DNA of 45,508 nucleotides, from assembly GCF_029255125.1 (NCBI RefSeq), contig NZ_JAPUVR010000134.1:1-45508 (forward strand). Reading direction: 5' to 3'. The stretch is from Accumulibacter sp. Lineage in GTDB: Bacteria; Pseudomonadota; Gammaproteobacteria; Burkholderiales; Rhodocyclaceae. Position numbers and translations under genes: made by a program. The notes below the pieces were generated by a model. It saw nothing but the letters and a program-made list of their open reading frames with translations, was not told the DNA's origin and made no database searches. This document shows positions 22,394-42,943 of the stretch, one piece after another (position 1 is the first letter of the stretch; each line of letters begins with the position of its first letter).

Positions 22394-23506
22394 ATGATCA
22401 AAACAGCCTTATCGAAAGCGACCGTGACCGCCGAAGCGGTCGAAGAACTGGCCGCACAACTGCATGGTGTCGTGGCGAGCGTCGTTCTGCTCTTCTATTC
22501 GTCCCAGCATGATGCCCGGGAAGTTGCCCGCCTTGCCCGGAACGCTTGGCCGGAAGCGCACACGATCGGTTGCTCCACCTCCGGAGAAATTGTTTCGGGT
22601 GAAATGACCGATGGCGCGATCGCCGCAATGGCGATCGACCGCACGGTCGCTGTCGAGGTCTCCGTCGCGGTCGTCAGCGATATGGGCGACGCAAGCCGAG
22701 TGGACGCTGCCTGCCAACAACTCGGGTCGGCGCTCCATGGCGACGTTGGGCAGCACGTCGGCATCGTCCTGATGGATGGCCTGTCGGGCAAGGAGGAGGC
22801 GGTGATGGATCGCCTTGGCGACCTGACCGACCTGCGCTTCATTGGCGGTTCGTCTGGCGATGACCTGGCGTTCTCCGCGACCTCTCTGATTGTCGACGGT
22901 GACGCGCTGAGCAATGCCGCGGTTCTCGCTGTCCTGCACGTCCCGGCAGGCTACCGGGTGATCAAGACGCAGTCATTCTGCCGTGCCGGCAAGCAGTTGA
23001 CGCCGACGCGCGTCGACGCCGCCAAACGCGAAGTCATCGAGTTCGACGGCAAGCCGGCGAGCGAGGCCTACTGCGAGGCGGTCGGCGCCCGAACAGTCGA
23101 GGAAGCGGGCACCCGGTTCATGTCCAATCCGGTCGGGCTGATGGACGGAGACGAACCCTACGTCCGTTCGCCACAAGCTTTCGACGGCCATGCACTGAAG
23201 TTCTACTGCGCTGTCAGCGAAGGGATCGAGCTTGATCTCCTGCAGTCGACCGACATACTGGCCGATACGCAGCGTGCGCTGGCCGAAGCCAACAGCGATG
23301 GTCGAGTAATCGGCATCCTCAACTTCAACTGCATCCTGCGCACGCTCGAACTCAAAGCGCAGAACAAGACCCATGAGTACGCAAGCCTGTTCTCGCTGCC
23401 GACCGCCGGTTTTTCAACCTATGGCGAAGCCAACATCGGGCATATCAACCAGACGGCGACGATGATAGCGTTTCTTGGTGTGGACGCGGGCGCCGAACCG
23501 GCGTAG
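22394..23506 (+). CDS. FIST-domain sensory protein
   Basis: A 370-aa cytoplasmic protein with FIST_N (about residues 20-215) and FIST_C (about 220-355) domains and no other module. Key stretches are the N-terminal SVVLLFYSSQHDAREVAR and TIGCSTSGEIVSGEMTDGA, then the core FIGGSSGDDLAFSAT, and the C-terminal VIGILNFNCILRTLELK and GFSTYGEANIGHINQTATM. FIST proteins are proposed small-ligand sensors in signalling chains, often next to histidine kinases or cyclases; none is adjacent here. The start has AAGGAG 12 bases upstream. The transcript shows no clear terminator before the RfaH-like gene. Confidence 0.92.
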   Translation: MIKTALSKATVTAEAVEELAAQLHGVVASVVLLFYSSQHDAREVARLARNAWPEAHTIGCSTSGEIVSGEMTDGAIAAMAIDRTVAVEVSVAVVSDMGDASRVDAACQQLGSALHGDVGQHVGIVLMDGLSGKEEAVMDRLGDLTDLRFIGGSSGDDLAFSATSLIVDGDALSNAAVLAVLHVPAGYRVIKTQSFCRAGKQLTPTRVDAAKREVIEFDGKPASEAYCEAVGARTVEEAGTRFMSNPVGLMDGDEPYVRSPQAFDGHALKFYCAVSEGIELDLLQSTDILADTQRALAEANSDGRVIGILNFNCILRTLELKAQNKTHEYASLFSLPTAGFSTYGEANIGHINQTATMIAFLGVDAGAEPA

Positions 23507-23650
23507 CGCGTAGCGGGTGCCGTCGATCCGGCAGTCACCTTCGGCGCGTCGGATTCCCGCGGTGGCGCTACGCCAAACGCGGGCCAGCCATGCAAGCCGC
23601 TTGACGGTGCGGGCCCGATGCGTCGATACTTGCCGCCCGCAAATTGTTCC

Positions 23651-23688
23651 CGCCTTCGTCGATCGTTCGCCGTCGATCGACGAAGGCG
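23651..23688 (+). promoter_or_regulatory. 15-bp perfect inverted repeat ahead of the RfaH-like gene
   Basis: CGCCTTCGTCGATCG (23651-23665) and CGATCGACGAAGGCG (23674-23688) are exact reverse complements around an 8-nt TTCGCCGT loop. The right arm ends nine bases before the GTG start proposed for the RfaH-like protein and contains the only purine-rich GAAGG upstream of it, so the hairpin would hide the ribosome-binding site. No T-run follows, which argues against an intrinsic terminator. It could also be an operator for a dimeric regulator. Confidence 0.7.
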
Positions 23689-23697
23689 CCCAGGCCA

Positions 23698-24216
23698 GTG
23701 CCTCAGCTTTCGCCCACGTCATCCCCCTGGTACGTCTGCTTCACCAAGCCCCGACAAGAGGCGACTGCCGTGCGCAAGCTCGAAGAGCAAGGTTACGAAG
23801 TCTTCCTTCCGATGTTTACCCGCTGGGAGAAAACGACTCGTGGTTGGTCCATGAGGCAGCAGGTCATGTTCCCGCGCTACGCCTTCGTCCGCTGCTCGCG
23901 CTCGGAACAGAGCATCGCGCCAATTCGCAGCACGCCGGGCGTCACCGGGCTTGTCAAGTTTGGCAACACACTGGCCCAGATCGGTCACGAGACACTGTCG
24001 GCCATCCGTCACCTGGCGGAGCGGCAGGCGCGCGCGGCAGACGGGACCGGTTCGCCGTTCCAACCGGGCGAGGTGGTGAGCGTTTCAGATGGACCGCTGA
24101 AGGGGATGAGCGGTATCGTTTCGTCCATTGCCGCAGATCGGGTTGTTGTTCTGCTCAAACTACTTGGGCGCGAGAAACCGGTTGTTATGCCATGTGAACA
24201 TGTGACCTCGGGCTGA
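23698..24216 (+). CDS. rfaH: RfaH-like NusG-family transcription antiterminator
   Basis: A 172-aa NusG paralogue. The NGN domain runs from SPWYVCFTKPRQEATAVRKL (about residue 9) through the hallmark MFPRYAFVRCSRSE and STPGVTGLVKFGN. The KOW domain has FQPGEVVSVSDGPLKGMSGI (about residues 119-138). The sequence resembles RfaH (WYLLYCKRG, LFPNYLFVEF, TRGVSHFVRFG) more than the housekeeping NusG at 681-1214. GTG 23698 gives RfaH-like length; an alternative TTG at 23644 would place the hairpin inside the gene. RfaH-type factors load at ops sites and suppress Rho termination in long surface-polysaccharide operons. The polysaccharide locus starts just downstream and an ops match lies at 25479. Confidence 0.87.
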   Translation: MPQLSPTSSPWYVCFTKPRQEATAVRKLEEQGYEVFLPMFTRWEKTTRGWSMRQQVMFPRYAFVRCSRSEQSIAPIRSTPGVTGLVKFGNTLAQIGHETLSAIRHLAERQARAADGTGSPFQPGEVVSVSDGPLKGMSGIVSSIAADRVVVLLKLLGREKPVVMPCEHVTSG

Positions 24217-24530
24217 TCCTCCTACTGGCTATCACTGCGCCTTGCGGCGTCTTCGCGCGTATCGCGGGAGCAGTAGGAGCGCGGCGGCAGACGAATCATG
24301 AATCGCACGAGTACCAGTATCGGTGGCCGCGGCTTGTGAGCCAGTCGAAGAAGCGTCGTGGTGATCTACAGATTTGTTAGAGCAATGACTTGCAACGCAG
24401 CGATGAATTGCCACGGCTGATCATGTCTCCGAGTAGCGCTGAAAGCGGCTGAAGTCGGTTGATGAGAGTGGAGGGCACGAGGGGCTAGCTGGTCACAGTA
24501 CAAGCACCAGGGACCCTACAGTCTGCCTTG
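24217..24530. other. Non-coding stretch after the RfaH-like gene
   Basis: About 310 bases with no supported gene. CTCCTACTG (24219-24227) and CAGTAGGAG (24271-24279) form a 9-bp inverted repeat with a 43-nt spacer immediately after the stop. It might act in transcript ending or stability but lacks a T-run. The remainder is unremarkable up to the IS5-like left end at 24531. Confidence 0.4.
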
Positions 24531-25145
24531 GGAAACGCTGATTTGAGCGCCGACAGATCATGCGTATGGTATAATGGACACGTCAGGTAAGGTGGGATTG
24601 GCCAATGATTCAGATCAGCTTTTCGGAAGCCGAGTTTGCCGCGAAGAAGCGGGTAACGAAGTACGCGCTCCTTATTGCCGACGTGGAAAAGCTGGTACCC
24701 AGGCGGGAACTGCTGGCGGTCATCGACCCGCATTACCCGACGAAGCGCGGGCGGCCGCCGATCGGGCCGGGGCGAATGCTGCGGGTGTATCTGGTCGAGG
24801 AATGGTACAGCCTGCCGGATGGAAGGGCGGCGAAATCGACCGGGAAAGCGCGACGCTGGCGGCAAGCACTGGCGTTACAACCTGCAGATGTGTCGGCGGT
24901 GAGCAACCTCCGAAGTTTGGCGGCAAAAAGCGCGAGTCAGCATAAGTTCAGGCATGTAGATGCCGCGCGCACAGTTATGCCACGGCGTACCCTTCCTTCC
25001 ACCGCGTCACGGGCTTTGCTGCGCCTGGCAGGCGCCCACACCCTCGACCCGGCTCCAGGCACGCAATTTGCATGCTGGATGTGTCGTTAACGCGCTAGAT
25101 TCCGCGGCCTTGGCGCTTCTTGAGGTCCATTGATCAGCGCTTCCT
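24531..25145 (+). mobile_element. Internally deleted IS5-family element, copy A
   Basis: The left end GGAAACGCTGATTTGAG and right end TTGATCAGCGCTTCC (25130-25144) are imperfect inverted repeats also found at the other IS5-like copies in this window. Between them only about 615 bases remain instead of about 1.2 kb. The N-terminal transposase part (24605 to about 24840) is recognisable: MIQISFSEAEFAAKKRVTKY, then IDPHYPTKRGRPPIGPGRMLRVYLVEEWYSLPDG. It then runs out of frame into sequence without similarity to the right half of copy C. A TATAAT at 24570-24575 may be the element's own promoter. It cannot code for an active transposase. Confidence 0.75.
24605..24840 (+). pseudogene. IS5-family transposase, N-terminal fragment
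   Basis: The frame starting at ATG 24605 matches the IS5 transposase N-terminus (helix-turn-helix region with RMLRVYLVEEWYSLPDG) for about 78 residues. After that the reading frame no longer resembles the family. All three catalytic residues (DDE) lie in the missing part, so the fragment is dead. The paralogous stretch at 38403-38690 is about equally well preserved. Confidence 0.75.
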
Positions 25146-25768
25146 TAAGAGTGGAAGCAAGCCCAGCTCAGGCTAGCAGCGCTGGCGCGGTTTACACTTA
25201 GCTGTCCGCTGCCGTGTTGGAACAGGTACCGCCGATAAGCCCACAAAGATGAATTTCTTCCCATTTCGCGAGTCGCTGGAGTAGCACAATGGCCCGCTTC
25301 ACGGGATAATTCGTCAACAATCGCTGCTTGGGCTGATGCGACCTGTATCGGCCCGCCTCGTGGGTGAGCGCGGCGTAGGAGGTCAGACGCTGGAAGTGTG
25401 GGCCGCCAAACGTAGGGTGGTCGCTTCTCAGGGTGGTTCCACTACATCAAGCTGCTGAATGCGGAAGCATTCGGGCACGGCGGTAGCGTGGTTGAAGTGG
25501 GGTTACCGGAGGTTCCAGCGAGCCTTGGCCAGCAGAAGGGCATTGAGTTAAGTGGGTAGCCTTGTGCCCCGTCGGCGGAAGGCAGAGGGCGTCCAGCCCG
25601 AGCAGAAGTGGCGACGGTTGACCCAATGCTGTAACCGCCACCGGAATCAGGTTGCGGATCGGAAACGGTGCTGGCGAAGCTTGCGTTTCAGGCTCGTCGG
25701 AGCGTTAGCAATCCAGCGCGCGGATGCTGTTGTCAAATCCGGTGCGCCAAATTTCATAAGCATGAGCG
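25146..25768. other. Leader-like region upstream of the polysaccharide genes
   Basis: About 620 bases between IS remnants, with no supported gene. Its notable content is the ops-like site at 25479-25490 and the hairpin before it, annotated separately. One + strand frame reads WFHYIKLLNAEAFGHGG through the ops site but I do not recognise it and it is not preceded by a start or ribosome-binding site. I could not identify a convincing promoter. Confidence 0.4.
25455..25490 (+). promoter_or_regulatory. ops element with upstream hairpin (JUMPstart-like)
   Basis: GGCGGTAGCGTG at 25479-25490 is an exact copy of the 12-nt ops core found before E. coli RfaH-dependent operons (consensus GGCGGTAGnnTG). 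It is preceded by an 8-bp stem, CTGAATGC/GCATTCGG with one U-G pair, closed by a GGAA tetraloop (25455-25474). This parallels the JUMPstart leader, where a small stem-loop lies just before ops. It is on the coding strand of the glycan genes and downstream of the RfaH-like gene, but 1.8 kb before wzx because a decayed IS256-type gene intervenes. RNA polymerase pausing and RfaH loading here is inference. Confidence 0.65.
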
Positions 25769-25769
25769 G

Positions 25770-26990
25770 ATCAGGCGGTAATCTTTTGGCGCCCCGGGGG
25801 ATTGCTAGGCACCAGACGCCGTCTTTTACAACCACACCCCCGAGCGGGTCGGCATTCGCTTCGACGCCGCGAAGGTAGTACCAGCTCTTCTCGGCCTCTT
25901 GGACCCGTTTGAACGCGAGCCCCGGAGCCGTGGCCCGCGACACGCAGTTCCTCGTGTGCATAGTGCGATGGCGTTCCGTGGCGAAGGTCGACACGATGGG
26001 GGTTAGTAGTTTGCAGGTGCATCCGTGGTAGAGGGCGAGAAAGGCGTGGCGGTCCTTAGCGAGTTTGTTGGTGGCCTTCGGGTATTTCGCATGATAGCTC
26101 TTGGGAAAGGCATCAACGGTGACGATGGCATGCGCTCGGGTGAGCTCTAACAAAATCTCGTGCTACGCCGGTTTGGCGTTACCCTTGCCGCTCATTTTGG
26201 AGTTCGTTGAGCACGTTGGCGGCCTCGTGGATCCGACAGCGCCGTGGGCGAGCTTCGGGACAAGTCTGGTCGAGCGCACTCCACAACCCGTTCGTACCGC
26301 CTCCGGCTGCCAACAGGGGGCACCAGTCCAGGCCGCGCGTCTTCAGGTGGCGCAGTACTTCAAGCCACGATGTCGGCGACTCGCGCAGGGCACCGCTAAT
26401 CCTTACCCGTTCGTTGGTGCCTGCGGCGGCGACGAGCACTATGATCAACAGGCAGCTAGTAGCGTGCGCCGCCTTCATCACGCCAGCAGGTATAAATTCC
26501 GTCAGCCCACCAGTAGATGTCGCGGCAGTTGCTCAAGCCGCGGTTTATCCACACCGCGTATTGACCGGCCGACGCGCTTTCAGCCAGTCGACCACGTTCG
26601 GCGCGAACACGCGCACCTTGACACACCAGCACCGTCAAGGTCTCGCGCGCATATCGCCACCGGAAACCCACTTCAGGTACAACCACTGCAGTGTCGCAGC
26701 GATCGTCTTCGGGCGATGCTCGTATTGCGGCGCAACGGCGGAATTAGGCTTGACGCCGGTGCCGGTGTGGTTCCACACCCCTCAGCAGGCGAACCCCAAT
26801 CGATCCGATTGCCGTCAGGACCTCACGCCGCGGCAGACCCCCGTTCCGCACCGCCGCCGTCGCCGACGAAAGTGTCCGAACGTTGGCGTACGCACCCGGG
26901 AATTCCCGCCTCTCAAGGTTGATCGCACCTTGCATCAACTTGTGGGTGTACCGGCGAAACAATGCTTCGAGCGTCAGCCGCACTTCCCGT
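25770..26990 (-). pseudogene. Decayed IS256/Mutator-family transposase
   Basis: Pieces of one IS256-type transposase can be followed on the - strand in three frames. The N-terminal part has VRNGGLPRREVLTAIGSIGV (about 26850). The middle has DIYWWADGIY (about 26510) and the stretch RESPTSWLEVLRHLKTRGLD (about 26370). The C-terminal part has KYPKATNKLAKDRHAFLALY (about 26050) and VSTFATERHRTMHTRNCVSR (about 25950). In IS256 proteins these belong to the zinc/DDE core and the ESTFATVRHRT region. Several frameshifts and stops break it, so it is an old, inactive insertion. It lies between the ops-like site and wzx, opposite to their orientation. Terminal inverted repeats were not located. Confidence 0.75.
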
Positions 26991-27191
26991 GGGTGGCCGT
27001 CCTTGTTGCTTGCGACCTCTCTCGTCGCGCTTCTGCGGATTCGGCGACTGCCGGTGCCGACAACCCGACTTCATCTGAGGTACGCCACCTGATCAAGTCT
27101 TCCTCACGCCTGCCTACGCGAGAATGGAAAATAGCTCATGAAGCTCATTAAACAGTGGTTTCCAAATTGCCTAGCAACGCCCAGTCCGAAG

Positions 27192-27216
27192 TCCTGAGAC
27201 AGTCGATGTCTCAGGA
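27192..27216. repeat. 10-bp inverted repeat upstream of wzx
   Basis: TCCTGAGACA (27192-27201) and TGTCTCAGGA (27207-27216) pair perfectly around GTCGA, about 90 bases before the wzx start. No T-run follows. It could be a hairpin in the wzx leader or a protein-binding site; sequence alone does not decide. The rest of the 27000-27308 gap shows no gene, and no promoter stands out. Confidence 0.45.
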
Positions 27217-27308
27217 TGGAGGGCACAGGTGCGCATCCAAGAGCATTTCCGAGCGAACTGCTCTCTCTCGAACCAACCGCTCGCGACAATACACTCTAAC
27301 GGGGCTTC

Positions 27309-28850
27309 ATGAAATCTTCGCCTGAATTCTCTAAAACGAGCATACTAAAGAACGGGATAAAGATATTTACAAGCAGGATTTTGACAACCATTCTCGCCTT
27401 CTTGACTGTCCCAATAGTAATAGGAAAGCTTGGAATCGATGTATATGGGGCTTGGGAGTCAATACTCGCAATTTCGGCCATCACTAACCTGTTTAGTGCG
27501 GTAATAACAGGCACCCTCCTATGGTTGATATCAACCTCTCATGGTTCAGCAGATAAAGGTGAAATCGAGAGATACGCGCGGAATGGGATTTTTTGCAGCG
27601 TTTGCTTATTTGCAGTCGTAGTTCCAATCTCAGTTTTTTTTCGTCACGAACTGGTCGGCACCTTCAATCTCCCGAGAGAAACTTATCAAGATGCTGTTTG
27701 GCTGCTGCCCGCAGTGGTTTCATTTTCTTTCATCACCAGTATCAACGAAGTTCTGGCAGCGCTCGTAAGTGGTCTTCATCGCGCCGGGACGGCTGCATTA
27801 ATTCAGGCGGGCGCCAGCATTGGCGGCAGCTTGCTTACCATAGTCTGCATTTTCGGGGATGTGGGGTTGGTTAGTTTGCCTATCGGGTTAGCGTTCACGG
27901 CTGTTGGAGCAAACTGCGGTTTGTATGTGGCGTGTGGTAGGGTCTACAAAAAGATCATCCTCTGGCCCTTGTTGCCGGACAGAGGAATACTCAAGCGGGT
28001 TGCCCCGTATGCTGCGTTTATGGCTTTGGGCGCGCTGACAGTAGCGCTCAGAGATCAATCCGATAAGATTATTCTTTCGTATACTGCCTCTGTCGCGTGG
28101 GCGGGATACTACGGTGTTGCTGCTCGGCTTTCTGGTGTCGTAATGGTTGTTTGTACGTTCTTTTATGTTCCCGCAATAGCAGCGGCAGGCTCGTTATACG
28201 CCATGAGTGGCATGGCGGCTGTGACAAAGCTCTATAGCGACCTTACTGTAGGTGTTGCCTATACTGTGGGTTTAGTTGTTGTCCTGCTCGGGAGCTTGTA
28301 CGACCGGATTGTGGTGATGTGGATTGGACATGTTATGCCGGAGGTCGAGGCGATATTTTTTCTCCTTCTTATCGGAAACGGCTTGGCAGTAATGCTGACA
28401 GCTCCCGGCACGTCTGTCTGTAAGGGAATTGGTTTGGTAAAGATTGAGGCTGTCTATATCGCTGCGAGTTTAGCCTTGAACGTTGTTTTGAAGTTGCTGC
28501 TTGTTCCTCATTTTGGGGGGCTAGGTTCGGTCGCATCATCAGTATTGAGCTGGACGCTTGCGTCTTGTGTATTCATCTGGCTGTTACACAAACGTACTCA
28601 GCTGCCCTTTTCGAGCGTGACCAAGACGATAAGAACGATCTTGATAATAGTGCTCTGCGTCTCTCTTGCGCGATGGCTGAGTATTGGATTTCCTCCCGAA
28701 GCGCATCGTCTAGACGCGGCCGTCTCAGCGACTCTGTTGGGGGTGGTTACAGCAGGGGTGTACACTGCGATGATGATGTTATGTCGAGTCATCTCGTTTA
28801 GTACTATCCTGCAACTGTTGGGTGGTCTAACGAGCAAGGCTAAGGCTTAA
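27309..28850 (+). CDS. wzx: Oligosaccharide flippase (Wzx type)
   Basis: A 513-aa integral membrane protein of the MATE-like polysaccharide transporter superfamily, which moves undecaprenyl-diphosphate-linked repeat units to the periplasmic face. The N-terminus shows the family pattern: a short cytoplasmic segment, KNGIKIFTSRILTTILAFLTV, then KLGIDVYGAWESILAI. About twelve to fourteen hydrophobic segments cover the length. The ribosome-binding site is weak (GGGG four bases before ATG 27309). Base use is much poorer in GC than the housekeeping block, with many ATA and AGA codons, which suggests acquisition from elsewhere. It is the first glycan gene after the ops-like site. Confidence 0.88.
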   Translation: MKSSPEFSKTSILKNGIKIFTSRILTTILAFLTVPIVIGKLGIDVYGAWESILAISAITNLFSAVITGTLLWLISTSHGSADKGEIERYARNGIFCSVCLFAVVVPISVFFRHELVGTFNLPRETYQDAVWLLPAVVSFSFITSINEVLAALVSGLHRAGTAALIQAGASIGGSLLTIVCIFGDVGLVSLPIGLAFTAVGANCGLYVACGRVYKKIILWPLLPDRGILKRVAPYAAFMALGALTVALRDQSDKIILSYTASVAWAGYYGVAARLSGVVMVVCTFFYVPAIAAAGSLYAMSGMAAVTKLYSDLTVGVAYTVGLVVVLLGSLYDRIVVMWIGHVMPEVEAIFFLLLIGNGLAVMLTAPGTSVCKGIGLVKIEAVYIAASLALNVVLKLLLVPHFGGLGSVASSVLSWTLASCVFIWLLHKRTQLPFSSVTKTIRTILIIVLCVSLARWLSIGFPPEAHRLDAAVSATLLGVVTAGVYTAMMMLCRVISFSTILQLLGGLTSKAKA

Positions 28851-30657: not shown

Positions 30658-31818
30658 GTGAGGCTATTGTTCATTTCTTTTGAACTGGGAGTTACCTCCT
30701 CGGGGATTGCTAGCGATCGCGTTGCCAGGCAGCTAGCGGAACACGGTCACCACATCACAGGACTCGTAGGCGCACAAACGCCACAAGAGAGGCCATTCGA
30801 AGTTTGGACAGCATCTCCATTCCCATTGAAGCCGGCGAGGTTCTACTCGCTGTTAGGGAACCTGATTGGCCGTGATCTAAATTATGTCTTCTGGGAACGG
30901 CGTGCCATCAAACTTGGGTTGTCTCTAATAGATAAGCACTGCCCGGACGTAATTTATGCCAGAGGCTCGCCGGCTTGCGCATTTTCAGTGGGACTGCATC
31001 TCTCGGAACGGACAGGTATCCCCCTGGCAATCCATTTCGCAGATCCGATCCCCGCCACTCCGGACTGGCAGGCAATGCCTGCTGTGCGGGAGAAAATGCG
31101 CCGGACGGTGCTCCCTGCTCAACGCCATGCGTCATTAGTATCGTTTGGAAACGATAGGATGCGTGTCTACCAGGAAAAGACTACCGAAGAGTGTATAGGC
31201 AGCCGGTGCATGATACTACCAAATCCGATTCCCGTAAGAAAGCCATGTACGCCTTTAGTTAAAAAAAATGCTTTCGTATTCACCTTCATTGGTTCGTTTT
31301 TTGGCAGCCGGAGACCTGATTCACTACTCCAGGCATTCTCGGTTGTGGCGCAACGGCATGCGGATGTAAGGCTTCACATCTACGGTGTGTGCTCAAAAGA
31401 GATGAAAGGTCTCATTTACAGGGACGCGTGTCTCGCCAGATGTGTCGACCTGTTTGGATGGACGAGCGACGTTGCGTCGGCGCTTTCTGAGTCGTCCTGC
31501 TTGATCGACGTAGATCCCGATGTTGACGATTGCGTTTACACATCCAATAAGCTCATGGACTATCTTTCGGTCGATCGCCCAATACTTGCGATCACACCCA
31601 GAAATAGCGCTTCACGAGAAGTCTTGGAAGGCCTTAAGGAGTCATGCGTTCTTTCAGACCACGCGATCGAGAATATTGTTGGCGCCATGGAAACAGCAAT
31701 AGCGAGTGACTGGGGCATCAGTGCATTCGAGGAAAGAAGGGAGCTTCGGTCTGCGATGAGCTTAGAAAGCGTTTGTCGCCACCTTGAGAACAGGCTCGAA
31801 GGACTCATACGACGGTGA
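30658..31818 (+). CDS. Glycosyltransferase, GT4-like
   Basis: A 386-aa predicted cytoplasmic GT-B enzyme that would add one sugar to the lipid-linked repeat unit. The N-terminal acceptor domain starts MRLLFISFELGVTSSGIASD and includes DVIYARGSPACAFSVGLHL. The linker ILPNPIPVRKP precedes the donor domain with FVFTFIGSFFGSRRPDSLLQ. The C-terminal donor-site region is YTSNKLMDYLSVDRPILAI, in place of a classical EX7E. It starts at GTG 30658 with AAGG upstream. It stands alone between an IS66 remnant and a deleted IS5 copy, so its promoter is unclear. Donor and acceptor cannot be named. Confidence 0.82.
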   Translation: MRLLFISFELGVTSSGIASDRVARQLAEHGHHITGLVGAQTPQERPFEVWTASPFPLKPARFYSLLGNLIGRDLNYVFWERRAIKLGLSLIDKHCPDVIYARGSPACAFSVGLHLSERTGIPLAIHFADPIPATPDWQAMPAVREKMRRTVLPAQRHASLVSFGNDRMRVYQEKTTEECIGSRCMILPNPIPVRKPCTPLVKKNAFVFTFIGSFFGSRRPDSLLQAFSVVAQRHADVRLHIYGVCSKEMKGLIYRDACLARCVDLFGWTSDVASALSESSCLIDVDPDVDDCVYTSNKLMDYLSVDRPILAITPRNSASREVLEGLKESCVLSDHAIENIVGAMETAIASDWGISAFEERRELRSAMSLESVCRHLENRLEGLIRR

Positions 31819-31895
31819 AAGACGCACGTTGCTCATGGGTCATTCGCGTTGTCGTTTCGCGACCCAAAGCCTCCGCCCTCCACTGGCCGAGGGTT

Positions 31896-32497
31896 GGCGA
31901 AGCGCTGATTTAATGGCCCCGCCCGACGATGCAAAGGGTGCAAATATAGACGCCAATGGGCACGAGATTGGCTAAAGAGTCAGGCCAGCTTTTCGGAAGC
32001 CGAGTTTGCCGCGAGGAAGCGGGTCATGAAGCGCGAAGAGCGGAAAGACCTGGACGTCGACTGGCAGCTGGCGATGAACCGCAGCAAGTTGAAGGCAATC
32101 CCGCAGGAGAACAGGTTTACCCCATTGCCGTGCCAACTGGAATCGGTCAAGGCTATTATCCGGTCGAGGGTCGAGCACCCGCTTTCACATCGTGCATAAT
32201 CTCTTCGCCCATCGGAAGGTCCGTTGCACGAGGCTGAAGAAAAACACCGCCCGGTTGCACACCCTCTTTGGGCTGGCTAATCTGGCCATCGCCACGCGGC
32301 TGCTTGTCGCCCTCCACAGCCAAGGTGGGTTCTGAGCACGCTGAGGAGCACCGAACACGGGCGGTGGAGGCCAGAAGGAGGGTTCAAATGCCAGAAAAAC
32401 CGGCTCGAGCGGCGCGACGCTGACCGGGGGTGTGCTCGTTTCCCAGCTTGCGGCAGCCTTGGTGCGCCTTGACGCCGAATGCGCCGGGTTTCCTTAG
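31896..32497 (+). mobile_element. Internally deleted IS5-family element, copy B (MITE-like)
   Basis: A 0.6-kb derivative. Its left end GCGAAGCGCTGATTTAA and its right end (CTTGACGCC...TTTCCTTAG, degenerate) match those of copy C. An in-frame internal deletion joins transposase residues FSEAEFAARKRVMKRE directly to KDLDVDWQLAMNRSKLKAIP (31986-32100). About 650 bases with the first catalytic aspartates are lost. The joint lies at a short GCGAAGAG-like homology. The coding remnant ends at IRSRVEHP near 32190, then a frameshifted tail LHTLFGLANLAIATRLLVAL is visible to about 32335. It could only move with transposase supplied from another copy. Confidence 0.78.
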
Positions 32498-32796
32498 AGG
32501 GGTCGCAGCAGCTCCCGGTGATTTTCGGCAGTCCATTCTGGCACTCCGAATGTGCTCGATTTTTTTTTGTGATACCAGTTTCCTTATTCTATTAGTAGCT
32601 CTTATCCGCATCGCGTCTTCTATAAGCTTTATGAAAAGGCTGAGTTGACCTAAGAGTGCGAAGCCGTGGTAAAGCATTGAGCAAACCACGCAAGATAGAG
32701 AAGACGTTAGGTACTGGCTACAGTAGTGAATTTATCTTAGCCAGAGATTAAATCATGGTATTAGAAGAGCAGTCGAACTAGCTATAGAGGTTAGAT
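32498..32796 (+). promoter_or_regulatory. AT-rich leader before the second glycosyltransferase
   Basis: This 300-base stretch holds no gene and is clearly AT-richer than the flanking IS DNA. Possible sigma-70 elements are TTGTGA, 17 bases, TATTAG (about 32568-32596), and TTGACC at 32645 with a weaker downstream box. Neither is strong. A T9 run precedes the first. This is the best candidate for a local promoter inside the glycan locus. Confidence 0.3.
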
Positions 32797-33882
32797 GTGA
32801 AAATCTTGGTCGTAGGAAACGGATTTACTCGCTACGAAGAGCCTGGAAGATACTTTGTCAATCACCATACTGCTGACTTTCTCGGCGGGTTGGTTGCCAG
32901 GGGGGTCAAGGTTTCGCTTGCGCAGCCAGTCATTCGCGTCCCCACGGATGGTGGGCTGAACGATGCGCGCGTACCTACCCAGGAAATCGAGATTATCGAT
33001 CTGAATCGACGCGCGGTGACGATCGGGCTAAAGGTATTGCAGGCGATCTGGTCGGCGGATCTGGTATATCTATTTTTTCCGGGGACCTGGCCAAGGCTAA
33101 TTGGCTTTGGTTGTTTGTTACTCAATCGACCATTCGGGATATACTTGCGGGGTGAGCAGTTCTCGAGTAAAGGGTTTGACGTCAGGCTGCTTCAGAGGGC
33201 GGTAGCGATATGCACTGAGACCGGTTTGGAGGAGCGCGTCCGGATGCACAGCGATCGAATTATTCCAGTCGCACCGATGATCGACATGACAGCGCAGGAC
33301 GCACTAGCCCGTACGTCGGAACGGGGACCGAACGGGTCCCTCAGGATTCTTTTCGTGGGACGGCTTGAGAACGCAAAAGGCGTTCCAGAACTCGTCAGCG
33401 CTGCGCGGGAGCTCAAAGAACGGGGTGTATCGTTCGAAATGCGCTTAGTTGGCGGTGGCCCACTTTATCACCGATTAAGAGAAGAGCTGCTAGTGGATAG
33501 TGATTTGCCGATCGTGCTGACGGGGCTACTGTCTGACAAAAGCTCAATGATGGCACAGTACGAATGGGCAGATGCGCTAGTCTTACCATCACATCATGAG
33601 GGCTTTCCGAGGGTTCTATTCGAAGCTATGATCAAGTCTTGCGCGATCGTGACGACGATGGTAGGCGGTATCCCGGCAGTAATGCGCGACGGGGTAAACT
33701 GTCTCGCGCTACCCGTTGGTAGTTCAGTTGCCATTGCAGATCAGCTAGAGCGCTTAGCGAAGGAGCGAGGTTTAACGGGGGCGTTGGCTTCTGCGGGCCA
33801 CACAACGGTATTGGAAATACTTGCTCATCGTGTCGCACACATCGCCGCAGTTCAAAGGATAATCGATGCAAAGGTTAGGTAA
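32797..33882 (+). CDS. Glycosyltransferase family 4
   Basis: A 361-aa GT-B glycosyltransferase. The N-terminal domain starts MKILVVGNGFTRYEEPGRYF. The donor domain contains RILFVGRLENAKGVPELVSA (about residues 183-202), VGGGPLYHRLRE, and the diagnostic E-x7-E in HHEGFPRVLFEAM, followed by AIVTTMVGGIPAVMRDGVNC. GTG 32797 has AGAGG six bases upstream. The acetyltransferase gene starts 17 bases before its end, so the two are translationally linked. Composition is intermediate between wzx and the chromosome core. Sugar specificity is unknown. Confidence 0.9.
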   Translation: MKILVVGNGFTRYEEPGRYFVNHHTADFLGGLVARGVKVSLAQPVIRVPTDGGLNDARVPTQEIEIIDLNRRAVTIGLKVLQAIWSADLVYLFFPGTWPRLIGFGCLLLNRPFGIYLRGEQFSSKGFDVRLLQRAVAICTETGLEERVRMHSDRIIPVAPMIDMTAQDALARTSERGPNGSLRILFVGRLENAKGVPELVSAARELKERGVSFEMRLVGGGPLYHRLREELLVDSDLPIVLTGLLSDKSSMMAQYEWADALVLPSHHEGFPRVLFEAMIKSCAIVTTMVGGIPAVMRDGVNCLALPVGSSVAIADQLERLAKERGLTGALASAGHTTVLEILAHRVAHIAAVQRIIDAKVR

Positions 33883-34486
33883 GATCTGGAATGGTCGAAT
33901 TGGTGGTGTGCCGTCAGCGCTTTTATTGGCGCTGAGTGTAGTATATGGTCGAATAGGAGATTGGATTTCTACGTCCCTATGGAGGGGGAACCTTGCTGCT
34001 TTGGGAACGGGATCAAGAATTCAGCGGAGCGTTACAATTCGCTTTCCGGGGCGCGTAAGGATTGGGCGTGACTGTTGTGTTGGTTCCTTTAGTTCTTTTA
34101 CCTCCGAGTACGCGGATGCCGATCTGGTGATTGGGGACAATGCAACGATTAATCCGCATGTTTTTCTGGACTTTAGCGGTGGCTTAATGATTGGAAAAAA
34201 CGTTTTGATTTCTAGAAACGTCACCGTTTTCACTCACTCGCATGGCTATGATCCAAAGTCGGAGGCGCGGAAGATGCCCTTGCGGATAGACGACAATGTT
34301 TGGGTGGGTGCTAATGTGATTATTGGTGAAGCGGTTTCTTGGATAGCTGCGGGTTCGATCATTGGTACCGGGTCAGTGGTAACACGGGATATCACGGAAA
34401 AGGGGATTTATGCTGGTGTGCCGGCGAGCTTAAAAAAATCTTTGCCGTCTGCAACGGAAGTCTCTAAAGCTGGTCTATCGCGGTAA
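33866..34486 (+). CDS. Hexapeptide-repeat acyl/acetyltransferase
   Basis: A 206-aa left-handed beta-helix acyltransferase that probably acetylates a sugar of the repeat unit, using acetyl-CoA. An N-terminal hydrophobic helix (about residues 14-35) may hold it at the membrane. Hexapeptide turns include LVIGDNATINPHVFLDF, GLMIGKNVLISRNVTVFTH and NVWVGANVIIGEAVSWIAAG. The catalytic histidine loop is VFTHSHGYDP, and the C-terminal GSVVTRDITEKGIYAGVPA is typical. It overlaps the preceding glycosyltransferase gene by 17 bases. The position near IIGEAVSW, where LPGV is usual, is slightly degenerate. Confidence 0.9.
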   Translation: MQRLGKIWNGRIGGVPSALLLALSVVYGRIGDWISTSLWRGNLAALGTGSRIQRSVTIRFPGRVRIGRDCCVGSFSSFTSEYADADLVIGDNATINPHVFLDFSGGLMIGKNVLISRNVTVFTHSHGYDPKSEARKMPLRIDDNVWVGANVIIGEAVSWIAAGSIIGTGSVVTRDITEKGIYAGVPASLKKSLPSATEVSKAGLSR

Positions 34487-35249
34487 GGGCAGAGTGCAAA
34501 GACTCCACATTTACGCCGTAAGCCCCGCGGCGGTGTACGCAACCAACGCGGATCCCTTTCGCGGATGAACTGGACGCCGTTGACGCGGTCCATGACGCAC
34601 TGCAAGCCGCTGAGCATGGCTACGAATCGCAGCGCATAGCTGTAGGTCGGCTGTACAGACAGACCGCGCTGGGGCACATGGCACAAGGGGCCGAATCGTC
34701 GATGCTTTGTCCATTGGAGTCCTGTTCGGCGCCCTGGAGGATCAGCACGCCTTGCGGGGGGCGGTAGGCCTCCGGGAGCACGCCCAGCAGTGGCACGCCA
34801 GCAGACCTTCCCAATTGACGTAATCATTGGGCATTGGCCACGAAGCGCTACTCCGCGATCGTCGCTGCCCGGCCAGAATGCGGCCACGGGATGTGCCCAC
34901 TGTTGGCTTGGCAGCCAGCCTGTCCAACAAAACGATTGCCCGCTTGCTCACGATTCGGTTCCCCAGGTAAACTTTCTTCGGCTGCTCCGCAGCCCAGCAC
35001 ATCCTGCCAGATTCTTCAGTAGATCGTCGGATCGCAGCGGGCTCCTAAAGTGTTCATAAGGGATACCCTCTCGACTGGGTTCTGCGTCGGTGGTCATGCT
35101 CCGCGGTTTCCTGGCGTGTAAGGATGACGACGAACTGGGCGCCGGAACAATCTACATCGGCTTGCAGCGCGTCGGCGACTGCTTCACGGGTCTGCACTTC
35201 GTCCCTGAAGCGGGTTCGGGGTAAGTTGTGTCTACAAATGCATGGGCCA
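34487..35249. other. Unassigned GC-rich region
   Basis: About 760 bases with no gene I can support. Several short frames on the - strand are open, for instance one with RFVAMLSGLQCVMDRVNGVQ near 34600 and one with VPLLGVLPEAYRPPQGVLIL near 34760, but neither has a start, a ribosome-binding site or a family I can name. They look like scraps of decayed genes or IS DNA. The composition contrasts with the AT-richer acetyltransferase gene just before. Confidence 0.4.
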
Positions 35250-35396
35250 AGGGACTCGAAAAGCGGGCGAGGAAGCCAGAAAGTGGCTTTGAATCCGCGA
35301 GGAATTGGCCGGAACGGTGCGACGCGCACCGCAAGGACTCGTTACCCAAACCATCAGCAGCGTTGGGGCGTTTTGGCATCCGTTGATCAGCGCTCC
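35250..35396 (+). mobile_element. IS5-family right-end remnant
   Basis: The 3' non-coding tail of the same IS5-like element survives. GTGGCTTTGAATCCGCGAGG aligns with the equivalent tail of copy C, and the segment ends with the right inverted repeat TTGATCAGCGCTCC at 35383-35396, followed by CTTAGG. No left end or transposase part was found upstream. The next glycosyltransferase starts 55 bases further on. Confidence 0.7.
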
Positions 35397-35451
35397 CTTA
35401 GGCTTCGGAGCTACGGCAATCCCTTCGGCTAATCTAGGCGATCATCACGCA

Positions 35452-36603
35452 ATGGGTTCCCAAAAAAACGTCCTCGTTTTTGCATCCAGCTATTTGCCGG
35501 GTTTTAAGGGTGGAGGCCCGGTTCGCAGTATCTCAAATCTAGTAGAAGCCCTTGGAGACGATCTGGAGTTCAGGATTCTAACCGCTGATCGAGACCTTGG
35601 TGAGACCACTGCCTACCCAGACAGACAGGCTGGAGTTTGGCATACAGTTGGGAAAGCCAAGGTCCAGTATCTCTCACCAGAGCAATTACGCCTACAGAAT
35701 ATGTTCCGGCTTCTTCGAGAAACCGACTGTGATACCGTCTATCTGAATAGCTTCTTTGATCCTAGGTTTAGCGTCGTTCCCCTCGCGCTCTATCGCTATG
35801 TGCTTCGGAAGCGGCCTCAGGTCGTCTTGGCCCCAAGGGGTGAGTTTTCAAGCGGCGCATTAGGGTTGAAGGCAAGAAAGAAGCGTGCGTTTCTGGGAGC
35901 TAGTCGGCTGTTGGGTCTACATCAGGGCATAACCTGGCAGGCGTCGTCACAGCACGAGTTGGATGACATCCGAGCGGTAATGGGACACGCCGCGACAGAC
36001 ATCCGTCTTAGCCCACCGTTCCCAGGAATCCTCGGGGATCTACCACCCCCGAGGGAATCGCGTTTTCCAGAGGAACCGCTGCGCCTGGTCTACCTTGCTC
36101 GTATCGTGCCAATGAAGAACCTACTCTTTGCACTTGAGGTGCTTGCGCAGGTTCAAGTGCGAGTAGTCTTTTCGATCTATGGCCCCTGTGAGGACCAAGC
36201 CTACTGGAAGGCGTGCCAAGAAGCGATCGCGCGGCTTCCAAAGAACGTGAGCGTCCGCGAAAACGGACCGCTACCACAGTCTGAAATTCCTCACGTCTTG
36301 GCTGATCAGGATCTCCTTTTTTTACCCACTAAGGGAGAGAACTTCGGCCATACAATCGCTGAGGCACTGGGAGCGGGTGTGCGGGTCTTGATTTCTGACC
36401 GAACGATGTGGCGTAACCTTGAATCCGAAGGCGTTGGCTACGACCTGGCACTTGAATCGCCCGGGAGCTTTGTCCGCGCTATTGAGACCGAATACTACCG
36501 CGCGCACCAGGAAACACTTAGATTGAGCTGTCGGGCATACCTGGCGCGTAAGTTGGAGCTCGACAAGCTGAGGGTTGCCAACAGGGGCTTGTTTGGGCTC
36601 TGA
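35452..36603 (+). CDS. Glycosyltransferase family 4
   Basis: A 383-aa GT-B enzyme. ATG 35452 gives MGSQKNVLVFASSYLPGFKG; the upstream part of the open frame is IS5 tail. The N-terminal GGPVRSISNLVEAL is the glycine-rich acceptor-domain loop common in this group. The donor domain has RLVYLARIVPMKNLLFALEV, FSIYGPCEDQAYWKAC and the E-x7-E site in KGENFGHTIAEALGAG. The C-terminus is rich in Arg and Leu. It is followed after 355 bases by the polymerase gene. Linkage and sugar cannot be assigned. Confidence 0.88.
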   Translation: MGSQKNVLVFASSYLPGFKGGGPVRSISNLVEALGDDLEFRILTADRDLGETTAYPDRQAGVWHTVGKAKVQYLSPEQLRLQNMFRLLRETDCDTVYLNSFFDPRFSVVPLALYRYVLRKRPQVVLAPRGEFSSGALGLKARKKRAFLGASRLLGLHQGITWQASSQHELDDIRAVMGHAATDIRLSPPFPGILGDLPPPRESRFPEEPLRLVYLARIVPMKNLLFALEVLAQVQVRVVFSIYGPCEDQAYWKACQEAIARLPKNVSVRENGPLPQSEIPHVLADQDLLFLPTKGENFGHTIAEALGAGVRVLISDRTMWRNLESEGVGYDLALESPGSFVRAIETEYYRAHQETLRLSCRAYLARKLELDKLRVANRGLFGL

Positions 36604-36958
36604 GAGGCATTTGCCCAAAATTGGATCAGCGGCCGTCAAGGGGATATCGTCTTCACAAGCCGGAGTACTGGCAATTTGTGGCACTGGACCCCTTTGCTAG
36701 AGCGTGAGCTTGGGGTTAGTGGTCAAACCGGAGTTGTATCAGGAAGTTCGCCCAGGCGTTGAATTGCATTAGCGTCGATAAGTTGTGCAACAGGGAATGC
36801 GCTAAGGATAGGCGCGAGTAAGCAACGGTAGCCGGCGCTGCTCCGTGCGAGCCGAATTCTCGTATCACGGTGAGGCAATAGGAGCATAGGAATGTAGCCT
36901 TCTCCGGAGATTGCCGACTGTCGCGTGTCTAGCTATGCCTTTAAGGGATCGGAGGTGA
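36604..36958. other. Non-coding gap before the polymerase gene
   Basis: 355 bases with no supported gene; short open frames on either strand lack starts with ribosome-binding sites. No strong promoter or terminator is apparent. The last bases, GGATCGGAGGTGA, form the ribosome-binding site of the downstream gene. Confidence 0.4.
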
Positions 36959-38332
36959 ATGGTGGCAGAGCGAGAATATGGGACGGGTGTGGGCCACGAT
37001 TGTCGACCGGGAGGACTAAAGCTGCCCCAAGTAGGCCGAGAGGGAATTTCGACCAGAGTCTCCTTATTTCCGTTATATTTCTTCCAGGTTTATTTGAGTT
37101 TGACGGTTCTCCTATACGCGTTTGGACCATGGCCCTGGCCGACCCAGGAGCCGGGCATTCTTTACGGCTTTTTGCTACTGGTGCAGGTGGCCTTTTGGCT
37201 TGGGTATAGACTTGGGGTACCAAAGGTTCCTTGCAAGTACGTTGGGCCGTGGAGTATGCAGGTGCTTGTTAGCGTAAGCCTGATCTTAAACATGGTGTGG
37301 ATAGTGCCAAGCTTCATGTCTAGGTCGGGGGCTACTGGTTTTAGCCTCGGGGGAATGTTGGAATCGGCTCTGCAGGGACTATACGATCCGGGCAGTATGT
37401 ATGCGGCTCGAATGGAAGCACTTGCGACAGTGGAAAAAACAACCCTTTTCGGCTATTTGAGTCAGGTGGTGAGTCCGGTATTATGGCTTGCTATTCCACT
37501 TGCGATTTTTTTCTGGAAGAGTCTAGACCGTCTAAAAAAGATTTTCTTGTTAATCGTCGTCTTCTTTGAGATAGTCTCGTGGGTGGCAATCGGTACTAAT
37601 AAGGGGCTGTTTGATATTCTGATTGTCGTGTCGTGGATGGTAATCGCCGCAAATCCACGGTTTATCAGCAGCTTTGATTTTAGGGGGTTCCTCAAATCCG
37701 CTGTATTGATAATCGGCGGGTTGGTGGCTGTGCTATACTTTTTTGCCATCGGTCAGGAGGGTCGAGGAGGTGGTGAAATACCAGCCTATGATAGATCGGC
37801 GAATATTCAACTTGACTACGATAATTGGTTAATTGCGGCACTGCCAGATGGTGCGCGGTTGCCGTTCGGTGCTGTCGCGTCGTATCTTTCCCAGGGCTAT
37901 TATCCGTTGTCTATCGCATTGACAGAGCCGCCCACTTTTAGCTATGGTGTAGGTCATTCGCACTACTACACTGGAATCGTGCAGTCGTTCGTTGGGCAAG
38001 GAGTTATTTCAGATAAGACGTATCCGGCATTAATTGAAAAGTATGGGTGGGACCGATATGGAAAGTGGCATACGATGTACACTTGGATGGCTTCGGATAT
38101 CAGCTTTGCCGGGGTCATTGTGTTTGTCTTTGCTCTTGGAGGGCTATTAGCCAAGGTTTGGTGTGACGTCGTTTATCGCCACAATCCGCCGGCTGTTGCT
38201 CTTCTTGCCTTACTCTGTATAATGGTGTTCTACTTTCCTGCGAATAATCAGGTTCTGGCGTTTTCTAGAACAGCTAACGCGTTTTGGGTGATTTTAGTTT
38301 TTTGGGGGCTTACTCGGAGTAGGAAAGCCTGA
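36959..38332 (+). CDS. wzy: O-antigen/oligosaccharide repeat-unit polymerase (Wzy type)
   Basis: A 457-aa membrane protein with about ten to twelve hydrophobic segments. A large loop falls at residues about 265-345 (GQEGRGGGEIPAYDRSANIQ to TFSYGVGHSHYYTG), typical of Wzy polymerases that join repeat units in the periplasm. Sequence identity within this family is low, so the call rests on topology and location. ATG 36959 lies only three bases from GGAGG; the next codon, GTG 36962, has better spacing and may be the real start. The last residues RSRKA and the TGA lie within the left end of IS5 copy C, so the native C-terminus may have been replaced. Confidence 0.75.
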   Translation: MVAEREYGTGVGHDCRPGGLKLPQVGREGISTRVSLFPLYFFQVYLSLTVLLYAFGPWPWPTQEPGILYGFLLLVQVAFWLGYRLGVPKVPCKYVGPWSMQVLVSVSLILNMVWIVPSFMSRSGATGFSLGGMLESALQGLYDPGSMYAARMEALATVEKTTLFGYLSQVVSPVLWLAIPLAIFFWKSLDRLKKIFLLIVVFFEIVSWVAIGTNKGLFDILIVVSWMVIAANPRFISSFDFRGFLKSAVLIIGGLVAVLYFFAIGQEGRGGGEIPAYDRSANIQLDYDNWLIAALPDGARLPFGAVASYLSQGYYPLSIALTEPPTFSYGVGHSHYYTGIVQSFVGQGVISDKTYPALIEKYGWDRYGKWHTMYTWMASDISFAGVIVFVFALGGLLAKVWCDVVYRHNPPAVALLALLCIMVFYFPANNQVLAFSRTANAFWVILVFWGLTRSRKA

Positions 38333-39555
38333 GGAACCGCCGACTTCGCGGCCGAGACCGACGTTGACGGAGGATTGCCGGTCGGTTGTTGGGGGATCGG
38401 ATTTGTCGACGGGTCAGATCGGCTTTTCGGAAGCCAAGTTTTCCGCGAGACAGCGGGTCACGAAGCGGGAGCACTTTGCCGCCGACAGGGAAAAGGTTGT
38501 TTCCTGGCAGGAAGTGCTGGGGGTGATCAAACCGTATTACCTGAAAGGCAGGCGCGGGCCGCCGCCGGTCGGGCTGGAGCGCATGCTGCGAGTGTATCTG
38601 GTCCAGCAGTGCTACGGTCTGTCGGATGAGGGCGCGGAGGATGCGATCACCGACAGCCAGGTGTTGGGGGGATTCGTGCGGATCGATTTGTCGCAAGTAG
38701 CGGTACCCGCTGCGACGACGCTGCTGGAGTTTCGGCACTTGCTGTGGAAGCGACGGGCCTGTCGAAGGCCGTCTTCGAGACGATCACCGGGCAACGGAGG
38801 AGCCAGGCGCTGATGATGTGCGAGGGCACGATTGCTGGCGCGACAATTTTGGCTGCACTGTCGTCGGTGAAGAATCAAACTAGAGCCCATGATCCGGTGA
38901 TGCACCCGACGAAGAAGGGCAAGCAATGGCACTTTGGCATAAAGGCGCGCATCGGTGTCGATGCCGAAAGCGGGCGGCTGGTGCACAGGGTGGTTGGAAC
39001 GGCGGCGAACGTCGCCGACGTGACGCAGACCGCCGAATTGCTGCATGGCGAAGCGAAGACCGTCTGTCGGGATGCCGGTTACACCGGTGTCGAGAAGTGG
39101 GAAGAAATGAAGGGCCGGGACATCGACTGGCAGGTGGCGATGAAGCGCCGCAAGTTGAAGGCAATCCCGCAGGAAAACGAGCTTGGCCCACTGCTGCGCC
39201 AACTGGAATAGGTCAAGGCGAGTATCCGCTCGAGGGTCGAGCACCCCTTTCACATCGTGAAGAATCTCTTCGGCCATCGCAAGGTCTGTTGCTAGGGGTG
39301 AAGAAGAACACTGCCCAGTTGCACGTCCGCTTTGGGCCGGCCGTTCTGGTCATCGCCAAGCGGCAGCTTCTCGCCCTGCACAGCCAAGGTGCCTCCTGAG
39401 TACGGCGAGGAGCCCCGAAAGTGGCCGGTGAAGACCAGGAGGAGGCTTCAAACGCCAGGGAAATCGACCCGAACGGCGCGAGGCTGACCGGAAGTAGTCG
39501 TTTCTCGACGTGCAGCAGCTTTGGCGCGCTTTGACGTCCACTGATCAGCGCCTCC
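38321..39555 (+). mobile_element. IS5-family insertion element, copy C (near full length)
   Basis: The most complete IS5-like copy, about 1.2 kb. The right end CTGATCAGCGCCTCC (39541-39555) is clear. The left end is inferred from GGAAAGCCTGA at 38322, a degenerate form of the GGAAGCGCTGA seen in other copies. The body carries the broken transposase gene described separately, then a 150-base non-coding tail. TTAG follows the right end, consistent with the YTAR target preference of IS5 relatives. Confidence 0.8.
38403..39399 (+). pseudogene. IS5-family transposase, frameshifted
   Basis: The N-terminal part (GFSEAKFSARQRVTKREHF to LLEFRHLLWK, to about 38750) is in one frame and the middle part (ATGLSKAVFETITGQ to ELGPLLRQLE) in another. 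A TAG at 39209-39211 stops the second before VKASIRSRVEHPF. A further frameshift leads into KKNTAQLHVRFG to LHSQGAS. The first catalytic aspartate, normally in VDATI, reads as glycine (IAGATI). The second, in RDAGYTG, and the glutamate in VEHPF are still visible. The gene cannot make active transposase, so this copy is immobile unless helped in trans. Confidence 0.88.
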
Positions 39556-39652
39556 TTAGAGTTGAGAGCCAAGCGTTGCCCGATGTAGGTCTAAGGCGGT
39601 GCATAGCCGAGGTTGTACAGTTGTATTCTATTGACAGTTATTTGGGAGGTTT

Positions 39653-40687
39653 ATGTTCTCTGGGAAAGTGTTGTTGATCACAGGCGGGACAGGCTCTTTC
39701 GGCAACGCTGTGTTGCGCCGCTTTTTGGGTACGGATATTCGCGAAATTCGCATTTTCAGCCGTGATGAAAAGAAACAGGATGATATGCGCAGGCATTACG
39801 CAAGCACTAAAATAAAGTTCTATATTGGCGATGTTCGAGATGCTCGGAGCGTCCTGACGGCAATGCGTGGCGTCGATTTCGTTTTTCACGCGGCCGCTCT
39901 AAAGCAGGTACCTTCATGCGAGTTTCATCCAATGGAAGCGGTGCGAACCAATGTCCTTGGTACGGAGAATGTTCTCGAAGCAGCGATAGCCGCCGGCGTG
40001 AGGCGCGTCGTATGTCTAAGCACCGACAAGGCTGTGTATCCAATTAACGCCATGGGTATCAGCAAAGCGATGATGGAAAAGGTGATGGTAGCGGCGTCCC
40101 GCAATCTGGAAGGGGCTGGCACTGTCATCTGTGGAACACGCTACGGCAACGTAATGGCGTCCCGGGGGTCGGTCATTCCCCTATTCGTTGATCAGGTCCG
40201 TGCGGGGCGGCCGATTACGATTACAGATCCCAGCATGACGCGGTTCATGATGACACTAGATGATGCGGTCGATCTTGTTCTGTATGCCTTCGAGCATGGG
40301 AGAAACGGCGATATCTTTGTGCAAAAGGCGCCCGCTGCCACCGTCGAGACTCTCGCGAAGGCGATTCTCGTCCTGATGAAAAAGGTCGATCACGAAATGC
40401 GTGTCATTGGAACTCGCCACGGCGAGAAGTTGTACGAGGCCTTGCTAAGCCGCGAGGAGCGAGCGGCCGTTGAGGATCTAGACGGGTATTTTCGGGTTCC
40501 GGCCGATGCGCGCGACCTCAATTACGACAAGTTCTTCGAGTTTGGCGAAGAGCGGATCACGCAGGCGGTGGAGTATACTTCGCACAATACAGAACGGCTG
40601 GACCTGGAAGGGATGACACGACTGCTACTGAAGCTTGACTTTATGCAAAGGATCGCGCGTGGTGAGCACGCCGATGCACAGGACTAA
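39653..40687 (+). CDS. fnlA: UDP-GlcNAc 4,6-dehydratase/5-epimerase (FnlA/WbjB/CapE)
   Basis: A 344-aa SDR enzyme that starts UDP-N-acetyl-L-fucosamine synthesis from UDP-GlcNAc. The NAD(P)-binding motif is TGGTGSFGNAVLRRF (residues 10-24). The active-site segment is STDKAVYPINAMGISKAMME, where Met stands in the usual Tyr position of the YxxxK pair. This Met is a feature of the FnlA/CapE group as opposed to FlaA1/PseB. It also has RYGNVMASRGSVIPLF and GTRHGEKLYEALLSREE. ATG 39653 follows GGGAGG by four bases. It leads a four-gene block, fnlA-fnlB-fnlC-wbuB, with small gaps or overlaps. Confidence 0.93.
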   Translation: MFSGKVLLITGGTGSFGNAVLRRFLGTDIREIRIFSRDEKKQDDMRRHYASTKIKFYIGDVRDARSVLTAMRGVDFVFHAAALKQVPSCEFHPMEAVRTNVLGTENVLEAAIAAGVRRVVCLSTDKAVYPINAMGISKAMMEKVMVAASRNLEGAGTVICGTRYGNVMASRGSVIPLFVDQVRAGRPITITDPSMTRFMMTLDDAVDLVLYAFEHGRNGDIFVQKAPAATVETLAKAILVLMKKVDHEMRVIGTRHGEKLYEALLSREERAAVEDLDGYFRVPADARDLNYDKFFEFGEERITQAVEYTSHNTERLDLEGMTRLLLKLDFMQRIARGEHADAQD

Positions 40688-40693
40688 ATAAGC

Positions 40694-42930: not shown

Positions 42931-42943
42931 ATTCGGAGAGCAG

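Follow-up and report, generated by a model that had tools for sequence, protein, structure and literature searches.

The window analysed here, a 45,508-nucleotide contig of an Accumulibacter genome, carries on its + strand a gene for an RfaH-type paralogue of NusG and, downstream of it, a candidate leader in which a stem-loop is followed by an exact copy of the ops element. Gene order on this strand is rfaH, an open reading frame (ORF) related to IS5-type insertion sequences (IS), the site at 25449-25490, about 1.8 kb whose tested ORFs match no family, wzx, and then glycosyltransferase and sugar-nucleotide genes. The features at the centre of the analysis are:

23698-24216, +, RfaH-type NusG paralogue; GTG start, with a TTG start at 23644 possible
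25453-25477, +, leader stem-loop; arms 25453-25462 and 25467-25477, bulged G25473, GGAA loop at 25463-25466
25479-25490, +, ops element GGCGGTAGCGTG; one base 3' of the stem and 1.26 kb downstream of the RfaH-type gene

The RfaH-type gene and its candidate ops leader

The 23698 protein matches the Pfam NusG family at 69.7 bits, and the best of six NCBI models for it is TIGR01955, the RfaH model (105.1 bits), with the LoaP model lower at 64.3 bits; the original prediction of a NusG paralogue at this position thus stands, as an intact RfaH-type gene. We use "RfaH-type" and not equivalog because the score falls short of the curated TIGR01955 cut-off of 144.5. A profile built from 12 relatives has E. 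coli RfaH as its best match in the PDB (94.6 bits; best NusG, 65.4), which is also the nearest solved relative, and on these comparisons the protein, with its NGN and KOW domains, is nearer RfaH than NusG. It is 62-69% identical to 21 further matches in 19 other Accumulibacter genomes.

The exact 12-mer reported earlier at 25479-25490 is confirmed in position and strand, and we find it to be the sole exact GGCGGTAGNNTG in the window, with the G2:C9 and C3:G8 pairs and T6 of the 12-base ops all present exactly. Under a first-order Markov model of the window, the expected count is 0.005 for the full word and 0.095 for degenerate 12-mers; the earlier estimate of an "under 1%" chance is therefore sound for the former and too low for the latter, and across the window's whole genome the degenerate word gives 5 matches versus 11 for the reversed control, not significant alone. 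Most of the weight beyond chance is carried by the stem. A covariance model (R2), given a hand-drawn structure and, to avoid circularity, trained solely on 10 leaders from other genera than Accumulibacter, places 25449-25490 at 47.3 bits with an E-value of 1.6e-14 (rough, as are all E-values of R2 and of the model R1 introduced below, given short calibrations), the runner-up in the window reaching 11.0 bits. Sequence comparison thus confirms ops and hairpin as a real feature of the window.

A fold of the window sequence does give the 8-bp, GGAA-capped stem four bases 5' of ops that was first described, but relatives keep a slightly different pairing, in which a stem of 9-10 bp carries a single bulged base and stops one base 5' of ops, and single-sequence folds put the stem-ops gap at 0-2 bases in nearly all leaders. 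The statement that E. coli also has a stem-loop before ops proves correct: its rfb leader has a 5-bp stem, a 9-nt loop and a one-base gap to ops. With a stem-loop separated from ops by a single base, and a place in a polysaccharide leader, the window feature classes as JUMPstart-like.

Conservation of the leader and its pairing with rfaH

Model R1, built from an alignment of 40 class A leaders, was used to survey 28 Accumulibacter genomes. Because the window and other sequences of the genus went into building it, re-finding these is uninformative; the test is where R1 stays silent. It yields 37 matches of at least 51 bits in 18 of the 28 genomes, the next two at 35.6 and 30.7 bits and the remainder at 23 or below. 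An rfaH homologue is present in 20 genomes, and 17 have both, an association with a Fisher p of 7e-4, or 2e-4 if G008, where the only copy is degraded (30.7 bits), is counted. Relatives that keep the regulator have therefore mostly kept the site (17 of 20); those with rfaH and no strong copy are G008, G001 and G012, and the rfaH contigs of the last two end 0.9 and 1.5 kb downstream of rfaH. A site without rfaH occurs in G003 alone (genome 72% complete), and seven of the eight rfaH-less genomes give no R1 match at E 0.01. All 23 strong matches on rfaH contigs lie on the same strand as rfaH and downstream of it. One further candidate, an ops copy in G008, was ruled out as a site, as it sits inside a gene and has no stem.

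The same 12-base word is found in 32 of the 37 genus copies, and related leaders show hairpin and ops together with compensatory changes, as a check proposed with the original prediction had looked for. A list of 40 copies leaves out L087 for one mismatch and L103 as a duplicate stretch, and the 37 genus copies further exclude L081, L088 and L092. Among the class A leaders (Accumulibacter, Sulfuritalea and others; n = 40), standard pairs fill 94.5% of pair cells, compared with at most 46.1% in slid controls. Both-side changes occupy 28 cells versus 7.8 in shuffles, much of this being a single set of changes between two clades, so that the cells do not count as independent events; changes affect 5 pairs, a figure also attained by 108 of 500 shuffles. 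In the 14 class B leaders, one pair varies among C-G, U-A and U-G.

These data bear on a reading of the site as a chance word or conserved coding sequence. The genome is GC-rich, ops words occur elsewhere, some within genes, and the most often open frame, GGC GGT AGC GTG, is open in 18 of the 37 copies, the window's included. That frame is blocked in the other 19, however, and in 16 of the 37 copies every frame is interrupted by a stop within 60 bases on either side. Coding sequence is thus a poor explanation of the stretch, and together with the R2 score and the bias in strand and position, these results contradict this reading and make it barely credible. A rough codon-usage gene caller places nine of the 40 listed copies (L081's included) inside frames that are mostly short and low-scoring.

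The pairing extends beyond the genus. Applied to 150 genomes sampled from the family, R1 at E 1e-6 has matches in 12, every one of which belongs to the 26 that encode an rfaH homologue (hypergeometric 5.6e-11), although five of the 12 had leaders in the R1 training set, some picked for adjoining rfaH; the seven with leaders new to R1 all have rfaH (5e-7). With position left free, 12 of 14 family matches lie on the rfaH contig, on the same strand and downstream. A wider set of 79 loci from named genomes, drawn from the best 80 of 474 confirmed rfaH stretches, includes some with little downstream DNA, where absence is often uninformative. Across these loci, 33 exact ops words occur up to 8 kb downstream of rfaH on its strand; they are spread over 29 loci, and in 17 of the 29 a site is no more than 250 bases away from the rfaH match; none is on the other strand and two are upstream, and the reversed word occurs zero times downstream and once upstream. 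By comparison of sequences, then, the pairing of an RfaH-type gene with hairpin-ops is kept in many related bacteria.

Raw counts are no guide here: CAYGGCGGTAGCGTG occurs in 22 of 399 genomes of the order (23 places), the reversed control occurs about equally often (about 26), and such counts were rejected as evidence. Only context tells true ops sites from chance words. Seven of the 23 order-level loci (the window's included in the 23), L115, L117, L123, L125, L126, L135 and L136, were judged chance, and at eight others rfaH is present in the 1.5 kb examined. Gammaproteobacterial rfaH loci L193 (4372 and 5632, both reading GCCAAACNCTGCATTGG), L180 and L186 have further leader types before ops. 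The RfaH genes of L181 (titled Akkermansia muciniphila) and L191 (Anaerolineales) fall among betaproteobacterial ones in the protein tree, and these are probably mis-binned contigs.

Two to four sites per genome are found in 12 of the 18 site-bearing genus genomes; in the window's own genome the 25479 site is the only R1 match. G011, G015 and G018 have no site on the rfaH contig and carry sites on other contigs, at a minimum spacing of about 339, 32 and 42 kb, respectively, even if the contigs were neighbours, which suggests action in trans as well as on linked targets. The claim of a linked, locus-specific RfaH/ops module therefore stands as to linkage and needs qualification as to locus specificity. 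In G018, two of the three sites (L100:5997 and 19670) read GGCGGTAGCCTG (G10C), the sole two of the 37 genus copies to do so.

The unlinked sites matter for an alternative in which the factor acts in cis and recognises no sequence, a mode put forward for NusG-like beta-KOW RfaH homologues, and ops is a mere pause site or leftover. The protein lends this some substance: AlphaFold2 predicts a beta-barrel KOW domain, and of the residues named as contacting ops in PMC7593976, K10 is kept in 18 of 18 Accumulibacter homologues and R73 is Pro in all 18, with E48 replaced as well. A preprint (PMC13015549) reports that beta-type homologues encoded beside their targets, without some ops-binding residues, are active without ops. 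The fold call is non-discriminating, however, as both proteins modelled, this one and that of L204, a locus with a class B leader, are predicted beta; sites kept on non-rfaH contigs and the tight co-occurrence of sites and regulator likewise tell against purely local action, which we regard as unlikely.

What follows the sites varies. The first clearly coding genes after tested sites include gmd, other sugar-nucleotide enzymes and a glycerol-3-phosphate dehydrogenase homologue, and in other genera UDP-glucose dehydrogenase and an ABC exporter; often they are DUF4351/Rpn-like genes, which we take to be of the PD-(D/E)XK type. The latter form a cluster of 35 genes in 15 genomes, dispersed in Accumulibacter polysaccharide loci (e.g., L094, L097, L099, L100, L102, L107), and several stand directly after a hairpin-ops copy. 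In G014, three copies (L102:1722, 8200 and 11433), 6.5 and 3.2 kb apart, have identical flanks over 78 bases, which suggests recent duplication of the leader. Both observations would fit stem-loop and ops belonging to a repeated unit, either mobile or of Rpn/DUF4351 genes, that is present in these loci by happenstance. Just 13 of the 35 cluster genes have a site within 1.3 kb upstream, though, the window has no match to the cluster, and other genera have the site beside rfaH with different genes behind it; we find this explanation very improbable.

Upstream of a site, many relatives have a MarR_EPS gene (112-120 aa, TIGR04176) at 66-368 bases; one tested scores 138.1 bits (cut-off 88). The family occurs in 15 of the 28 genus genomes (14 above cut-off), and that search did not find it in the window's genome. 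Two G011 sites (L107:5500 and 6331), located on a different contig from rfaH, flank a MarR_EPS gene, one before and one after. A sigma-70 promoter search upstream of the 37 copies revealed no common pattern, the last 40 bases before them, stem included, being AT-richer; from 23400 to 27400 in the window, the lone + strand match is at 23601-23630, upstream of rfaH.

A candidate recruitment leader and the state of the window copy

The site, the stem, the conservation of both and the genome-wide pairing with the regulator are directly established, and the original antitermination-module interpretation is supported by sequence. We read 25449-25490 as an RfaH recruitment leader at a probability of roughly 0.77, with pausing, factor binding and antitermination argued mostly from E. 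coli RfaH. PMC11001881 describes the E. coli polymerase pausing at ops, with non-template pairs G2:C9 and C3:G8 and a hybrid of 10-11 bp. By analogy, RNA polymerase transcribing the + strand from upstream would pause at ops, where the non-template strand would fold as a small hairpin; the ops signal with its hairpin probably recruits the 23698 protein, which would bind and displace NusG, and the modified polymerase, escaping Rho-dependent termination, would then transcribe the whole of the long polysaccharide locus, aided by a ribosome that the KOW domain recruits. The stem-loop in the nascent RNA may strengthen the pause: if this falls at T11 as in E. coli, 12 nt would separate the end of the stem (position -2) from the RNA 3' end, which would place the stem at the RNA exit channel. 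Hairpin-stabilised pauses have a similar hairpin-to-3'-end distance. We infer this role of the stem by analogy.

The surroundings of the window copy are as follows:

24605-25090, +, ORF with IS5-type transposase fragment; NF033581 at E 2.5e-11, profile positions 5-105 of 285 only; DUF772
25552-27150, strand not assigned, ops-wzx stretch in which no gene is recognised; no family match for three ORFs in Pfam or two in NCBIfam
27309-28850, +, wzx-like flippase, first polysaccharide gene after ops; MatE 24.6 (cut-off 24.9), TIGR00797 50.9 (cut-off 147.4)
30658-44149, +, polysaccharide genes; four glycosyltransferases, a hexapeptide transferase, and Polysacc_synt_2, Polysacc_synt_C and UDP-GlcNAc 2-epimerase homologues
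720-1190, probable housekeeping nusG, first NusG-type gene of the window

The description of the site as the "head of a polysaccharide locus" is loose, as wzx starts 1.82 kb after ops. The IS5 fragment lies between rfaH and ops. The ops-wzx interval, in which 25751-26528 has 71-73% DNA matches in two related genomes, is probably decayed IS DNA. Further IS5-type transposase pieces resembling the rfaH-ops piece lie inside the polysaccharide locus at 38414-39211 and 31966-32142, and one ORF of the polysaccharide run (36959-38332) has no Pfam match.

The window site may be a worn copy, perhaps partly eroded, because of the transposase fragment, the probable IS DNA on the wzx side, the missing MarR_EPS gene and flank bases (C before ops, GT after) each unique among the 37 genus copies. 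Taken further, the same facts allow the module to be real in the genus and the window copy a relic no longer used, IS insertion and MarR_EPS loss having split rfaH, ops and wzx. The rfaH frame, the stem and all 12 ops bases are nevertheless intact amid seemingly decayed DNA, in the only site of the genome, and we consider disuse doubtful. The match between leader classes and the protein tree is incomplete: A and A' coincide with clades, but B and D each occur in more than one clade, so that class does not simply track the RfaH tree. This slightly lowers confidence in a recruitment leader and also in a bolder extension that we entertain only tentatively, in which linked, possibly non-switching RfaH homologues are still ops-dependent, the lineage-specific RNA stem and the DNA hairpin make a composite pause at the exit channel, and the factor is reloaded at each of the two to four sites, whether these are strung along a single very long locus or stand at unlinked ones.

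Accumulibacter is a main phosphorus-removing organism of sludge, and the leader is a candidate master switch for its polysaccharide loci. PMC7593976 (2020) treats the way in which RfaH homologues other than that of E. coli reach their targets as an open question; at many rfaH loci of beta- and gammaproteobacteria, candidate target sites with several distinct leader stems can now be read from the sequence.

Comparison with known systems

Our search of the open-access literature found no paper joining RfaH, "ops element" and betaproteobacteria, RfaH and Accumulibacter, Accumulibacter, NusG and exopolysaccharide, or "operon polarity suppressor" and Betaproteobacteria. LoaP is likewise a NusG paralogue serving long operons, and its RNA target is a different hairpin without ops. 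Operon-encoded NusG paralogues (TaA, UpxY; clusters CL2-CL8) share the placement of the regulator beside envelope polysaccharide genes; PMC7593976 calls their recruitment modes unknown, whereas here a candidate site is found. The beta-KOW "monomorphic" RfaH homologues described in PMC13015549 share the predicted beta KOW and the linkage to long operons, but those tested are reported active without ops, which is conserved here; the Accumulibacter loci offer a natural test case for whether ops is dispensable to linked RfaH proteins of the beta type.

A close parallel is E. coli RfaH/ops/JUMPstart (RF01707). The RF01707 model gives the window leader 18.9 bits, under the gathering cut-off of 35, exceeds its cut-off in none of 28 genomes (18 of the genus) with the E. 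coli control positive, and has no match in nine loci; the best reading from sequence is a JUMPstart-like variant missed by Rfam's model. PMC2864571 had earlier described a stem-loop conserved among gammaproteobacterial JUMPstart elements; the rfb leader resembles class B in geometry, and the tree places E. coli RfaH close to two proteins of class B (support values not reported). The Accumulibacter system differs from that of E. coli in its stem and loop, a usually linked regulator, several sites per genome and the replacement of R73 and E48, and shares with it the identical 12-base ops, a stem-loop with a one-base gap and polysaccharide targets.
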